64,000 bases of DNA from Synergistaceae bacterium (GCA_017405525.1 JAFRAH010000007.1:1-64000), one strand, 5' to 3'; positions 9,029 through 50,316 are shown, counted from the stretch's first letter. Numbers and translations are program-made. The notes: a model not told the origin generated them from the letters alone.

Positions 9029-9628
9029 GTGAACATTGCAAGAAAGCTAAGGTTTATGATGGTTCTTGTGCTCGCGTTAATTCCGGGCATGAGTTACGCG
9101 CAGGACTCGTTCAGGTATGCCACTACAAACATGACCTGGGCAGAGTTCTATTCCGGCGAAACAGGAGAAACATCCTCAGACCTCGAAGCTCAGGGACTCG
9201 ACGCTATCACCTCGCCGACAACTCACGCAATATCACGTTTCCCCCTCCTGGTTACGTCCTCGAACGACTCAGGAAGCACGCTCTCAGGTGTCAGGGCAGT
9301 ACAAGTCCGAATGACCGAAGAGGTGTACAACTCACTGACTGACAGGACACGCTATACCTTCACGGACGAAGCATTCACTGAGTACAAGCCCGTTAATGCT
9401 GACGGGACGTTCGGGGCAATGGTTACCGACACCGTCAATCCCGAAGGAGCAACCGTAGCATTCACGAGCGGGGCATCAAGCACATGGGGGAACTACACCC
9501 TCACGGTCTCAGGTGCAAGCATTGACATCGGACTTAGCGGGGACAAGATAGCACGGAACTATCTCGGCGGACTCATCGAGACATCCGACGGCAAAATCTA
9601 CGGCTTGAGGCACGACTGCAATCTATAG
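9029..9628 (+). CDS. N-terminal fragment of the Synergist-CTERM protein
   Basis: 199 codons from a GTG with a good ribosome site to the first TAG. Contains a Sec signal peptide (basic M-N-I-A-R-K-L-R, hydrophobic core, S-Y-A-Q) and most of the first half of repeat 1, ending G-L-R-H-D-C-N-L. If the TAG is a true stop, a truncated secreted protein of about 175 residues would be made. It carries no sorting signal and would be released into the periplasm. Confidence 0.6.
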   Translation: MNIARKLRFMMVLVLALIPGMSYAQDSFRYATTNMTWAEFYSGETGETSSDLEAQGLDAITSPTTHAISRFPLLVTSSNDSGSTLSGVRAVQVRMTEEVYNSLTDRTRYTFTDEAFTEYKPVNADGTFGAMVTDTVNPEGATVAFTSGASSTWGNYTLTVSGASIDIGLSGDKIARNYLGGLIETSDGKIYGLRHDCNL

Positions 9629-9643
9629 TCTGATGCCGGGGTT

Positions 9644-10459
9644 GTGGCTTTCTGCGTGAGCTCGGACTACGTTGAACCACATGGCCGGGGAATCGTCAGG
9701 GATTACGACTATACCGCCTCGCTTGAGGGCAAGACCATAACCTCAATCACCTTCATGCTCAAGGGACTGCCTGATGTCGTGATTGACTGCAGCGTCTTCG
9801 TGAAACACCATGCAACCGCAACAGTAAGAGCGGTGAACAGTTCCGTGAAGTCAGGGAGCAACATAGCCATAAACTTTGAGTTCAGCGGCCTGACTGATGG
9901 TGTGAGCTATGATGTCGTATCAGTGTATTCAGGCTCCGGGCGTTCAAGGAAAATGTTTAGCGACTACGAATATTCCGGCGGGGTTCTCACACTCAAGGGC
10001 AGCGTTGAGGCAGGGAACTACACAGCCATATTCAGGACAGAGAATTACGCGGACATATCGGCAACGTTCACGGTCAAGGACCATTACGCCACAACAAATA
10101 TGACGTGGGCAGAGTTCTACGCGGGCGAAACTGGAAGGACAGCATCACAGCTCCTTTCGGACGGCCTCGATGCCATAAGTACCCCGACGGTCAACGGAAT
10201 ATCTCGCTTCCCTCTTCTTGTTGCGTCCTCGAACGATGAAGGCAGCACCATTACCGGGCTCAAGTCTGTACCTGTGAGGATGACCGGGACAGTCTATGAG
10301 GCACTCACCGACAAGACACGTTACACATTCAGTGATGACGCAAGCTACACGGAGTACAAGGCTGTGAGTTCTGACGGCTCATTCGGGGCAATGCTCAGCC
10401 AGACAGTGAGGGCCTTAAGTGCTGACGTGTCATTCTCGACGGGCTCAAGCGCGACATAG
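9644..10459 (+). CDS. Middle fragment of the Synergist-CTERM protein
   Basis: 271 codons between the two TAGs, in the same frame as the flanking fragments. It covers the rest of repeat 1 (E-P-H-G-R-G, S-G-S-G-R-S-R-K) and the start of repeat 2. The first start-like codon (GTG at 9644) has no ribosome site and the fragment has no signal peptide, so independent translation into a useful product is unlikely. It is best read as part of the 9029-12976 gene. Confidence 0.4.
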   Translation: MAFCVSSDYVEPHGRGIVRDYDYTASLEGKTITSITFMLKGLPDVVIDCSVFVKHHATATVRAVNSSVKSGSNIAINFEFSGLTDGVSYDVVSVYSGSGRSRKMFSDYEYSGGVLTLKGSVEAGNYTAIFRTENYADISATFTVKDHYATTNMTWAEFYAGETGRTASQLLSDGLDAISTPTVNGISRFPLLVASSNDEGSTITGLKSVPVRMTGTVYEALTDKTRYTFSDDASYTEYKAVSSDGSFGAMLSQTVRALSADVSFSTGSSAT

Positions 10460-10534
10460 GGGCATTACGTCCTCAGCGTCTCAGGAGCAAGCATAGACAT
10501 TGGCACAAGCAACGACAAGATAGCACGGAACTAC

Positions 10535-12976
10535 TTGGGCGTTCTACTTGAGACATCTGACGGGGCAGTCTACGGGATGAGGCACGACAATAACATTTGG
10601 AGCAACACAGATATAGCCTTCACCGTCAACGAAAATTACACCGAGCCTCACGGAAGAGGAGTACAGCGTTTCTACGAGTACACTTCAGAGCTCGAAGGTA
10701 AGACCATCAGGAAAATCACATACCTCCTGAAGGACATTCCTGACGTTGTGATTGACAGCCTCGATATTTACGTGAAGAGACAGACCAGCGCAAGCGTCAG
10801 GCCCGAAAGCCTCCAGGTAATGCCGGGCTCAAACGTCCAGGTCAAGCTGGTGTTCAGCAACGTACCTTCAGGGGCTGGGTACTCCCTCGTCTCCGTAACT
10901 TCAGGTTCAGGACGCAACAGGCAGGCAGTCCCGGGGTGCACAATGTCCGGGGATGTCCTCACGATTAGCGGGGACGTTCCGCAGAACACATACACCGCCA
11001 CGTTCAGGAGCAGTGAGTACGTGGACATAGCCGCAAGCATCAAGGTCTTCACGTCAGATGCTACGAGTGCCACAGTATCGCCCGACAACAACGGGGCAAG
11101 CCTGAACTTCCTCGTAACTCCCAAAGGCTACGTTGCTTCCGTTGATGCTGAGATGACCTCCAACGATTTCGTGAACGCCACAGACTACACAGACCCTGCA
11201 GGAAACTTCACGGCCTCGTATTCTGAGGGAAGGCATCAGGTCGAGGGGTCAGGGTTCAGCTTTGACGTTGCTCTGAATAACATTCCTTCAGGTGATACGG
11301 CGGTTATAGGGTTCGGAAAACAATTCTACCTTACCCCCGACAATGTAGGCGAGGAACTTTACCCCATGCTCTACAGCGCAATAACCTCAAGGCCGGCAGG
11401 TGAGAGCGGTTTTATCGAGTTCCCCAGCTGCTCGGCACTCAGGACGGCAGGGCTCAAGGTCATGGTTCTTCTCCCGGACGGTTCGGCCCGTGATGTCAGC
11501 GACCTCGTAGGTGCGGGGGCAATGGTCTCGGATGACACACACATAATGCTGTTCTATGGTGTCATGGCCGCAGACTGTGATTCAGGCGACATAACGGAAG
11601 GTGAGTATCTCCTCTCCACTGAGGGCGAGACTCTCATAGCTGACGGCTCAAGAGATGGTCATATCAGGGTGGCAATGTACATTGAGGCACTCGACACAGA
11701 GGCTGACGTTATGACTGCCTCCTCGAACGTTGCAGGTATACAGTTCGACACGATGCCTTCAGGTTTTTTCCCGTCGGCTGACCGTAATGCTGAGGCAAAA
11801 AAAATCTACTGGCTTGACGACACAAATACCCTTTCAGGAGGAACAAGCTCATTCATCACAGGAAGAGCTAACCAGATTCCGGGCAACAGTGGCTACACTT
11901 TCACCGTTCCTTTCGACGCGGGCAAAGTACCTTCAGGATACACAGCGGCATTAGGCTTCGAACGACCGTTCACATTCACAGCCTCAAATCTCGGAGCAAC
12001 TGCCTACAATGCCCTCAAGTCCCGGATGTCATCAATGACGAAAATCCCCGGCTATGATTGGGTCATTCCTTCGGTGTCTGACTGGAACGCTCTGGGTATT
12101 CATGTCGTGGCTGAATATTCCGGCGGGGCTTCACGCGACGTTACAGGCGAGATGAGCGCGGGGCTTCTTGAGACTGAAGGCGGCGTTCTCTTGCAGTACG
12201 GGGCAATAGCTCTTGACCGTTCATTGACTTCAAGCGAGGGCGAAATTTTCGACATGGCCATAGAGCAGACCCCATTAGTGAGCGACGGCAATGCTGACGG
12301 GAAAATCACCGTAACATGGTACATAACCCTCACGGCTTCAAGCGGCAGTAACGGCGGCGGAAATTCTGGAGGGAATGGCGGCGGCACCAACCCCGGCGGC
12401 AATGGAGGCGGCGGCCCAGCTTCCACAGAGAACAGGATAACTTCCCCAGCAATCGACATAAACAGCAAGGGATCAGGAATACTTCAGGCACTCGGACAGA
12501 AGAACAGCAAGGTAACCACCTCAACAGGCATAACGGAGCTTCCTTCATCGGCCATGAAGGGGACTCAGAACGTGGCTTCACCTGACGCTGAGGCAGTGTA
12601 CCTCCCGGTTATCGAGGTTGAAGAGGCGAAAGTTTACGTTTTCGGCGTGTCAGTGGACAAGTTCGCGGAAGGCACTCCGATATTCTGGCACTTCAACGGC
12701 GTGGACATAGAGACCGGCGGGTTCGTACCCTCAACCTACGACAACGGGGCATATGCATTCTATGACGACGAGGGCAACGAGGTCAGCCAAGTACCGGCCA
12801 ACCAGCACGTGAATGTTGCGGCGTATCTTGAGCCCGGCATAACGTATTCCCCGACAATCACGAACAGTGCGACCAATACGGGGAATGCCGGAGGTTCAAG
12901 CGGAGGGTGTGAGGCTCTTGGTGGGATAATCCCGGCAATGCTTCTTGGGCTGATGCTGGCACTGCGGAAGAAGTAG
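10535..12976 (+). CDS. C-terminal fragment of the Synergist-CTERM protein
   Basis: 813 codons after the second TAG from a possible TTG/GTG-type start; the coding frame continues upstream to 10460. Contains the end of repeat 2, then several beta-rich segments, a Gly/Asn linker (S-G-S-N-G-G-G-N-S-G-G type), a domain with I-F-W-H-F-N-G, and the Synergist-CTERM signal ending L-R-K-K. The C-terminal signal implies processing at the inner membrane and delivery to the surface, but this fragment alone lacks a signal peptide. Best treated as the 3' part of the interrupted gene. Confidence 0.5.
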   Translation: MGVLLETSDGAVYGMRHDNNIWSNTDIAFTVNENYTEPHGRGVQRFYEYTSELEGKTIRKITYLLKDIPDVVIDSLDIYVKRQTSASVRPESLQVMPGSNVQVKLVFSNVPSGAGYSLVSVTSGSGRNRQAVPGCTMSGDVLTISGDVPQNTYTATFRSSEYVDIAASIKVFTSDATSATVSPDNNGASLNFLVTPKGYVASVDAEMTSNDFVNATDYTDPAGNFTASYSEGRHQVEGSGFSFDVALNNIPSGDTAVIGFGKQFYLTPDNVGEELYPMLYSAITSRPAGESGFIEFPSCSALRTAGLKVMVLLPDGSARDVSDLVGAGAMVSDDTHIMLFYGVMAADCDSGDITEGEYLLSTEGETLIADGSRDGHIRVAMYIEALDTEADVMTASSNVAGIQFDTMPSGFFPSADRNAEAKKIYWLDDTNTLSGGTSSFITGRANQIPGNSGYTFTVPFDAGKVPSGYTAALGFERPFTFTASNLGATAYNALKSRMSSMTKIPGYDWVIPSVSDWNALGIHVVAEYSGGASRDVTGEMSAGLLETEGGVLLQYGAIALDRSLTSSEGEIFDMAIEQTPLVSDGNADGKITVTWYITLTASSGSNGGGNSGGNGGGTNPGGNGGGGPASTENRITSPAIDINSKGSGILQALGQKNSKVTTSTGITELPSSAMKGTQNVASPDAEAVYLPVIEVEEAKVYVFGVSVDKFAEGTPIFWHFNGVDIETGGFVPSTYDNGAYAFYDDEGNEVSQVPANQHVNVAAYLEPGITYSPTITNSATNTGNAGGSSGGCEALGGIIPAMLLGLMLALRKK

Positions 12977-48283: not shown

Positions 48284-49115
48284 CTATTTTGCCGCATCGA
48301 GTATTATGCGTTTTATTCCTTCATCATCCGCGTCATCCGCGTAATCAAGAGTGGTTTTCCCTTCATTGTCTTTGGCAAAAATATCAGCCCCCGCCTTGAT
48401 GAGAGCTTTCACCACTTCAGGATTACTATTCCACTGTGTCGCCAACATTAAGGCCGTAACACCTCCATTAGTTTTAAGGTTTACGTCAGCTCCTGCCTTG
48501 ATGAGAGCTTTCACTACTTCAGGATTGCTGTTAGCCATAGCCGAAATTATCCCCAGTGTTTACATCAGCCCCAGCCTTGACGAGGGCATTTACTATTTCA
48601 TGACTTCCGTTGAACTGAGCTGCTTTTATTAAGGCTGTACCACCTTGATTGTCCTGAGCATTTACATTAGCCCCACTTTTGACGAGAACATTCACTACTT
48701 CAGGGTTATTATTTCTTTTAGCTGTCATCATTAAGGCTGTTTCTCCGTCTTCGTTCTTAGCGTTTACGTCAGCTCCTGCCTTAATGAGAGCATTCACCAC
48801 CTTAGGATTGTTCATAAAAGCCGCCTACATTAGTGCCGTAATGCCTTGATTATTCTTAGCGTTAATATTTGCCCCCGCCTTGATGAGAGCATTCACTACT
48901 TCAGGATTGGCGTTAATGTAAGATGTCAACATTAAAGCCGTATTACCGTACGCATCCCTAGCGTTTACATCAGCCCCAAACTTAATGAGATTCTCAATCA
49001 TTCTTGGGGTCGTGTTCTTGTCTCTTGCTACCTTGAGCAATTCCTCCGTCGCCTCACCAAACGCTGACGATACACATGCCATCACCAATACAACGCACAA
49101 AAACGCTTTCCTCAT
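48284..49115 (-). pseudogene. Broken secreted ankyrin-repeat protein
   Basis: Three ORF pieces of one gene. The first (48825-49115) has a signal peptide and two ankyrin repeats, ending at TAG (48825-48827) directly after T-A-L-M. The second (to 48531) continues in the same frame with A-A-F-M-N-N-P and four half-repeats, then ends at TAA after G-D-N-F-G-Y-G. The third starts in another frame at M-A-N-S-N-P-E-V-V and runs to 48284. The repeat pattern (G-A-D-V-N-A-K, G-x-T-A-L-M, N-P-E-V-V) shows that about seven residues are missing at the second break. So one nonsense change plus one small deletion. The intact protein would be a periplasmic ankyrin protein. It lies between the kinase and alcohol dehydrogenase genes of the catabolic operon. 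Confidence 0.8.
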
Positions 49116-49131
49116 AATGCTTCCTCCTGTC

Positions 49132-50316
49132 TTATTTTCCGGCCAGCTTCACGATAAGGTCTTTCTCCCCAAAGCCGCCCGATTTCGCCATGATGTAGTA
49201 CTTCCTCCCGTTGTATATGAATGACGTAAGGACTACTCCCCGTTCAACCTCACACACAGGCACAAGCTCATGAACTCCCACAGCTCCCATCAGTGCCAGA
49301 AGGGTATCACCCCCGACGCACAAGAGCCGCGCATCAAGCCCCAAGTCCATCACCGATTTTGCCGCACCAGTAACAGCCCGTGAGATGTTCAGCCTCACGT
49401 CGTCAGGTGTCAGGTTGTGGCTGTGTATGTAGTCCTCCGTCTGTGATGACTCATCGGGGTTATTCGCGTCAAGTATCGCGTGTGAGCTCCCTGCCTCGTC
49501 CATGAACTTTCGGGCGAACTCCAGACATTCAGGACTGCCCGGCCATGAAGGGCTGAGCTTCTCCGTTACTCCCAGTGATGAATACACGAAACCGTGAGAG
49601 CGTGCATAGTCCACCTGCGAGCGAGTTACGGGGTTGACAGAGCCGCAGACCATGAAGAGCCTCCGGGGCATCACCGGGACTTCCGCGCTCCTTCCGTGAA
49701 ACCCTAAGACATGCGCCAGTACCCCGGCAAAACCTGCGCACCCTGCCGTCAGTCTCAAGCCTGAATGTCCCAGTTGCCCGGCAATGTGTATCATGTCCCC
49801 GTCAGTCTCGGCATCGTATACGTGTATTCCCGTCCTGTCAGTCTGCTCGGCGATGATCTCCCGAACGTCCGAGTGTCTCACAGGCTCAAACGGATCTTTC
49901 CCGAACATGCTCTGAGCCACAGGCAGGCCGTCAACGTAGTGAACCCCTCCGCGAGTTACGCGCTTCATGGCCGGGAATGCAGGGACAAAAGCCATCTCCT
50001 CAAGTCCTAATGCGTCCATTGCCCCGGAAAGTTCACTGCCGATATTGCCGCGGAGTCCTGAGTCCGTCTTCTTGTAGATGTAGGGGATGTTGTTTTCTTT
50101 TGCGCGCGAGACTATTGCGTGAATGGTGCTGTATGCTTCCTCTGGTTTTACGTGCCGCGTCTCTGAGTCGAAGATGAGAACGTCAAGACCCTCTGCGTTC
50201 CTCAAGTCATAATTGCGTTCAGTAACTACTAGGGACTTAGCTCCCAGTGAAGAGAACTGCACCCCGGTATCTAGTGCCCCTGTGAAATCATCGGCTATGA
50301 TTAAGAGCTGAAGCAT
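49132..50316 (-). CDS. Four-carbon acid sugar kinase family protein
   Basis: 394 codons. DUF1537 family: A-D-D-F-T-G-A-L-D-T near residue 8, F-D-S-E-T-R-H near 49, K-K-T-D-S-G-L-R-G-N near 81, and a C-terminal nucleotide-binding domain with L-C-V-G-G-D-T and K-S-G-G-F-G. DtnK/OtnK-type enzymes phosphorylate D-threonate or related acids at the C4 hydroxyl for PdxA2-type dehydrogenases. First gene of the catabolic operon. Substrate stereochemistry cannot be told here. Confidence 0.9.
   Translation of the reverse strand: MLQLLIIADDFTGALDTGVQFSSLGAKSLVVTERNYDLRNAEGLDVLIFDSETRHVKPEEAYSTIHAIVSRAKENNIPYIYKKTDSGLRGNIGSELSGAMDALGLEEMAFVPAFPAMKRVTRGGVHYVDGLPVAQSMFGKDPFEPVRHSDVREIIAEQTDRTGIHVYDAETDGDMIHIAGQLGHSGLRLTAGCAGFAGVLAHVLGFHGRSAEVPVMPRRLFMVCGSVNPVTRSQVDYARSHGFVYSSLGVTEKLSPSWPGSPECLEFARKFMDEAGSSHAILDANNPDESSQTEDYIHSHNLTPDDVRLNISRAVTGAAKSVMDLGLDARLLCVGGDTLLALMGAVGVHELVPVCEVERGVVLTSFIYNGRKYYIMAKSGGFGEKDLIVKLAGK

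Follow-up and report, generated by a model that had tools for sequence, protein, structure and literature searches.

A putative surface-protein gene interrupted by two TAG codons

The window analysed here is a stretch of 64,000 nucleotides (GCA_017405525.1, JAFRAH010000007.1:1-64000) that forms part of contig C16 of a rumen Synergistaceae bacterium, whose 2.17-Mb genome consists of 43 contigs and is 99.4% complete; named homologues come from Synergistaceae and Synergistales genomes of goat and sheep samples. A gene for a putative surface protein (Table 1), flanked on one side by dapB-dapA and on the other by a cation antiporter-like gene, keeps, as an earlier note on this DNA had claimed, a single frame for 3.9 kb with only two stops, both TAG, their A bases at 9627 and 10458. 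The order dapB-dapA, surface-protein gene and antiporter gene, or whatever portion of it a contig holds, recurs in many relatives, and in most of them the homologue is uninterrupted and stands beside dapB-dapA and/or the antiporter gene; measured against these intact orthologues at the same locus, the frame is disrupted, as in a pseudogene. Broken homologues occur in three relatives, as a frameshift in the G024 ortholog and as TGA codons in G014 and G020, the latter two lying in homologues that need not occupy the same locus; the G014 TGA falls at a site where its sister G020 has Trp. The best reading of these comparisons is a locus conserved across the genus from which the gene appears to have been lost recurrently.

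The encoded protein would begin with a signal-peptide-like start (N-terminus VNIARKLRFMMVLVLALIPGMSYA, a putative signal peptide), continue with two Tp47-like repeats, further domains and a Gly-rich linker, and end in a tail of Gly/Cys, hydrophobic and basic parts. The tail, GGSSGGCEALGGIIPAMLLGLMLALRKK, aligns with model positions 1-26 of the 27 in Synerg-CTERM TIGR04564 at 12.5 bits, below the cut-off of 22.5. Repeats A and B are in tandem with a period of 323 residues and share 61.7% identity across the first 240 residues. When Trp was substituted at the TAGs, purely for folding, AlphaFold gave a confident model of the repeat unit (mean pLDDT 90), whose top PDB match was Tp47, the 47-kDa lipoprotein of Treponema pallidum (1o75; E 1e-9, TM 0.57-0.64 on the query), with Ig-like proteins as the next structural matches; no Tp47 Pfam match was obtained at E 0.1 with the three pieces of the interrupted protein. 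The predicted repeat-unit fold thus resembles Tp47, but the focal protein differs from it in its low identity (about 14%), its tandem copies and its tail, and we caution that penicillin binding is not implied. A role at the cell surface is likely, judging from the predicted fold and the C-terminal tail.

Table 1 Features of the window, and in-frame TAG codons of the genome with an assigned lost residue
Feature	Position or locus	Strand	Evidence or remark
Surface-protein gene	9029..12976	+	About 1,315 codons, interrupted by two TAGs
GTG start after AAGGAG, and N-terminus VNIARKLRFMMVLVLALIPGMSYA	9029..9100	+	Sequence read
Repeat copy A, Tp47-like unit	9116..10084	+	Repeat alignment
First in-frame TAG	9626..9628	+	Trp (TGG) in copy B; context CTA-TAG-TCT
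Repeat copy B, Tp47-like unit	10085..11053	+	AlphaFold pLDDT 90; best PDB match 1o75
Second in-frame TAG	10457..10459	+	Trp (TGG) in copy A; context ACA-TAG-GGG
Sorting-signal-like C-terminal tail GGSSGGCEALGGIIPAMLLGLMLALRKK	12880..12973	+	Sub-cutoff Synerg-CTERM TIGR04564 match
Ankyrin-repeat pseudogene	48297..49132	-	TAG at 48827, frameshift near 48540
Trp-site TAGs in the window	9626, 10457, 48827		Homologue alignment
Trp-site TAG	L093		Glycosyltransferase-like gene
Trp-site TAG	L099		Put_Ig-like part of subtilase
Trp-site TAG	L227		YeiH-like transporter
Gln-site TAG	L098		GltS-type symporter; CAG in 97% identical relative
Gln-site TAG	L100		Relatives vary: Gln, Glu, Tyr
Gln-site TAG	L126		Homologue comparison
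Glu-site TAG	L231		MATE-like gene

The repeat alignment bore out the claim that the other repeat copy has TGG at both sites: copy A reads HDCNL-stop-SD at the first stop against HDNNIWSN in copy B, and copy B reads SSAT-stop-GHY at the second against SSTWGNY in copy A. In homologous repeats of related genomes, the first column is Trp in nearly all and the second in most, with a few His or Phe. Under rough mutation weights, 51% of the nonsense routes open to the gene lead to TAG, and TGG-to-TAG changes make up 9% of all routes and 18% of those to TAG, so that two such changes out of two would be expected in about 1% of cases, a figure that concerns two events and a post hoc choice. The gene carries no frameshift, and the conserved columns of its repeats are violated no more often than in intact relatives; such undiminished conservation would fit either a recent loss or continued use of the gene.

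Strain-level on/off variation, in which open and closed alleles coexist and are kept by changing selection, would accommodate both these recent-looking lesions and a family broken by different lesions in three other species but intact in most relatives. We consider it unlikely because no phase-variation apparatus was seen and point nonsense mutations revert rarely. Homopolymer phase variation in particular was rejected, as tracts of at least six bases occur in the gene only at 11764 and 11797, with none at either TAG.

TAG interruptions across the genome

Interrupted genes were counted in a sample of 1.165 Mb (54% of the genome) with a trained codon model, which listed stops having same-frame coding potential on both sides; gene junctions were separated from interruptions by eye, and the lost residue was found from homologues. 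This census yielded 13 TAG, one TGA and no TAA interruptions, one possible extra TGA interruption (L231 + 18710) having been left out of the count, and the same scan of 827 kb from two relatives yielded no TAG, one TGA in the surface-protein gene and one selenocysteine-like TGA. The TAG surplus in this genome is real. By lost residue, the 13 TAGs comprise six Trp, three Gln and one Glu site and three with no assignment. The over-representation of TAG that the earlier note had hinted at thus holds genome-wide, but its restriction to Trp does not, and a Trp-only recoding was dropped once the Gln and Glu sites turned up.

The same sites bear on A-to-I editing of the mRNA, by which UAG would become UIG, be read as Trp and so restore the Trp sites in the message. 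Both focal stops and four others lie at Trp sites, and the G014 TGA stands where its sister has Trp, as editing would have it; we nevertheless find this hardly credible and dropped it when the Gln and Glu sites appeared, because seven of the 13 TAGs lie at Gln, Glu or non-assigned sites and simple transitions account for the TGG-to-TAG changes.

A subtilase gene, about 1,600 codons long, is interrupted by two TAGs but is free of frameshifts; its relative-rate comparison, a weak test, gave 27 versus 14 unique changes. The ankyrin-repeat gene in the window has its TAG, which lies outside CCWGG, where most aligned homologous repeats have Trp; since it is frameshifted as well, TAG accompanies true inactivation in at least one gene. 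In these respects the interrupted genes resemble ordinary nonsense pseudogenes of host-associated bacteria, with single-base stops in accessory surface or secreted genes and frameshifts in the same genome, but they differ from them in a stop spectrum that is TAG-skewed and tied to a methylation motif.

Decoding of UAG

The earlier note had raised a suppressor tRNA-Trp as one option and proposed a search of the genome for a CUA anticodon. None of the 44 tRNAs detected with RF00005 and ARAGORN has this anticodon, a search relaxed to E 10 added no tRNA beyond one 16-bit fragment, and a CUA-tRNA pattern search returned only tRNA-Arg(UCU), pieces of a tRNA-Leu region and other unrelated stretches. 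The expected tRNA-Cys, tRNA-Ile(GAU) and tRNA-Ala(UGC) were also missing; the assembly can therefore miss tRNAs, and the absence of a CUA tRNA is not absolute. PylS gave sub-cutoff matches only, like those in control genomes that lack pyrrolysine coding, and release factor RF1 is present and intact (539 bits, above the cut-off). Variants of tRNA-Trp that read stops have a 4-bp anticodon stem and A24, in a study that concerns UGA (PMC13092985); the sole tRNA-Trp here has a 5-bp anticodon stem and G24, and such a variant was rejected. The suppressor hint thus found nothing to sustain it, and suppression by a CUA tRNA, pyrrolysine coding and loss of RF1 were each rejected.

Terminator usage points the same way. 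The stops at 549, 5159 and 38824, which had been cited against a full recoding, are all TAG, and the argument extends to the genome, in which TAG ends 181 of 568 genes (32%) compared with about 19% in two relatives. A backup stop within five codons follows at similar frequencies after TAG (0.25), TGA (0.28) and TAA (0.22); across the 568 gene ends, TAG is neither avoided as a terminator nor given extra tandem stops. Judging from RF1 and TAG usage, UAG appears to be an ordinary stop in this genome, and a suppressor would be costly given such frequent terminal TAG.

A suppressor tRNA, inserting Trp or Gln and located off the assembly or on a mobile element, would still allow the surface protein to be made, and it would agree with the genomic TAG surplus, with two long genes that have two TAGs each and no other lesion, with the undecayed conserved residues of the focal gene and with an assembly that lacks three of the expected tRNAs. 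We regard it as decidedly unlikely because, beyond the lack of a detected CUA tRNA or PylS over the cut-off, the presence of RF1 and the use of TAG without backup stops, the interruptions extend to Gln, Glu and other sites, the surplus tracks CCWGG (see below) and one TAG-bearing gene is also frameshifted. Natural amber suppression and pyrrolysine coding likewise leave in-frame TAGs in several genes, but differ from the present case in the features just listed. Slightly more improbable still is the broader proposition that UAG is leaky or suppressed throughout, serving as a stop and a tolerated sense codon; full-length products would then come from the surface-protein gene, the two-TAG subtilase gene and the other TAG-interrupted genes.

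A CCWGG methylation hot spot as a likely source of TAG

Inspection of their flanks showed that many census TAGs sit in CTAGG or CCTAG. Where the inner C of CCWGG is 5-methylcytosine, its deamination turns CCAGG into CTAGG (CAG to TAG) and CCTGG into CCTAG (TGG to TAG). Codons within CCWGG make up 2.3% of TGG and 4.5% of CAG, and CCWGG-derived contexts surround three of the six Trp-derived and two of the three Gln-derived TAGs (5/9 versus 450/12,064 codons; odds ratio 32, p = 8e-6). CTAGG also surrounds two of the three TAGs without an assigned residue, and in the YeiH-like gene a relative retains CCTGG at the TAG site. Genome-wide, CCWGG has an observed/expected ratio of 0.34, and CTAGG and CCTAG have ratios of 1.27 and 1.32, compared with 0.7-1.0 in two relatives; CCWGG is depleted in those two relatives too, so that depletion alone is not the signal. 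Nonsense codons outside CCWGG are TAG in six of seven cases, which is not clearly above expectation (p = 0.10), although a contrast with the two relatives, which have none in 827 kb, persists (p = 0.04).

The gene content of the genome is consistent with such a hot spot. A C5 methylase (PF00145) adjoins an EcoRII-type restriction enzyme (EcoRII-C at 206 bits, with EcoRII-N; EcoRII structure 1na6 at E 2e-62). EcoRII acts on CCWGG, and by homology this restriction-modification system would have the same specificity. Of the 15 same-genus genomes tested, 14 lack EcoRII-C and one gives a marginal match; no Vsr (PF03852) was found in this genome or in seven relatives. CCWGG is the Dcm motif (PMC4924334), and 5-methylcytosine deamination that escapes repair, such as VSP repair, results in C-to-T transitions (PMC6116569). 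The genome-wide TAG surplus is likely due to a CCWGG methylation hot spot and is best explained in this way, and not by a special code.

The motif also bears on assembly or consensus error as the origin of both focal TAGs. The 43 contigs were probably assembled from metagenomic reads, which could favour such errors; we consider this very improbable because two separate substitutions would be needed in a nearly complete genome and many of the other TAGs track a biological motif, unlike random errors. The focal stops themselves are in neither CTAGG nor CCTAG (Table 1), so the hot spot was rejected as their source, and they are therefore ordinary G-to-A changes.

Discussion

We consider it probable that nonsense mutations inactivated the focal gene recently, that this gene is recurrently lost in the genus, and that the UAG surplus of the genome stems mainly from the CCWGG hot spot. 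Among the options that the earlier note had raised, chance loss is favoured, a suppressor tRNA is not supported, and low-level read-through or open alleles in the population are less likely. Two independent G-to-A transitions would have turned Trp codons into UAG, read as stop; translation would end after 199 residues, and the unanchored fragment, lacking the C-terminal anchor, would presumably be secreted or degraded. That the loss is tolerated suggests a function dispensable in this strain or habitat. In other genes, a CCWGG-specific C5 methyltransferase, with no Vsr found, would create hot spots of deamination at CCAGG and CCTGG, with CTAGG and CCTAG as products, and the resulting CAG-to-TAG and TGG-to-TAG changes would make UAG interruptions common.

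Classical lacI work in Escherichia coli reportedly placed 5-methylcytosine amber hot spots at CCWGG. The likeness extends to a CCWGG-type C5 methyltransferase, to transitions giving CTAGG and CCTAG and to CAG and TGG as the codons turned to TAG; the present case differs from E. coli in its EcoRII-like restriction-modification system and in that no Vsr was found, and methylation is here deduced from genes and sequence.

The focal gene itself appears ordinary and recently broken, and the imprint of methylation is the more useful result. When a restriction-modification system operates without Vsr repair, nonsense mutations at Trp and Gln codons can be biased toward TAG, and the interrupted genes then mimic amber recoding. 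We therefore advise caution in screens that take in-frame TAGs as a sign of recoding; the case illustrates how an apparent hint of a change in the genetic code may originate.

TAG-interrupted and broken genes

The interrupted genes of the source genome (G000), the surface-gene homologues broken in other species and the restriction-modification genes are located in the table. The two-TAG subtilase has no frameshift and retains its catalytic motifs, with an uninterrupted, 76% identical paralog lying ~5 kb away, and the GltS-type symporter is 97% identical to that of a relative around the TAG site. Phage-type integrases of G000 and the relative G004 have an in-frame TAG in common (L226 5154; L255), located within a short insert of ~7 codons. 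In G020, another relative, a glycine-reductase-like gene (L149, minus strand, 1736) contains an in-frame TGA in the context SAG*GTCHRSAV, which probably encodes selenocysteine.

Locations of interrupted genes, broken homologues and restriction-modification genes
Feature	Genome	Location	Strand	Detail
Ankyrin-repeat gene	G000	window 48297-49132	-	TAG at 48827; frameshift near 48540
Secreted subtilase, ~1,600 codons	G000	L099 3593 and 2720; L211	-	two TAGs
GltS-type glutamate symporter	G000	L098 12164	-	TAG; CAG in relatives
Surface-gene homologue	G014	L078 1595	-	TGA; Trp at same site in G020
Surface-gene homologue	G020	L082 7037	-	TGA
Surface-gene homologue	G024	L070 ~5280	-	frameshift
EcoRII-like restriction enzyme, adjoining C5 methylase	G000	C1:19275-21339 (L233)		
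Second C5 methylase	G000	C32:13612-14517 (L241)		next gene, NgoMIV-type restriction enzyme

tRNA complement and restriction-modification genes

Across the whole G000 genome, tRNA-Cys, tRNA-Ile(GAU) and tRNA-Ala(UGC) were not found; their absence probably reflects an assembly gap, since tRNA genes lie at or close to the ends of several contigs.

The NgoMIV-type enzyme matches PF09015 (406 bits). One in-frame TAG was also observed in a C5 methylase gene of the relative G003 (G003:C15:5088-6038, L232). GATC is likewise rarer than expected in G000, G010 and G020 (observed/expected 0.39-0.69).

Vsr, which repairs deaminated 5-methylcytosine, was not found in the G000 genome, and we link the EcoRII-like enzyme and C5 methylase, unaccompanied by Vsr, to the enrichment of CTAGG/CCTAG and to the genes interrupted by TAG.
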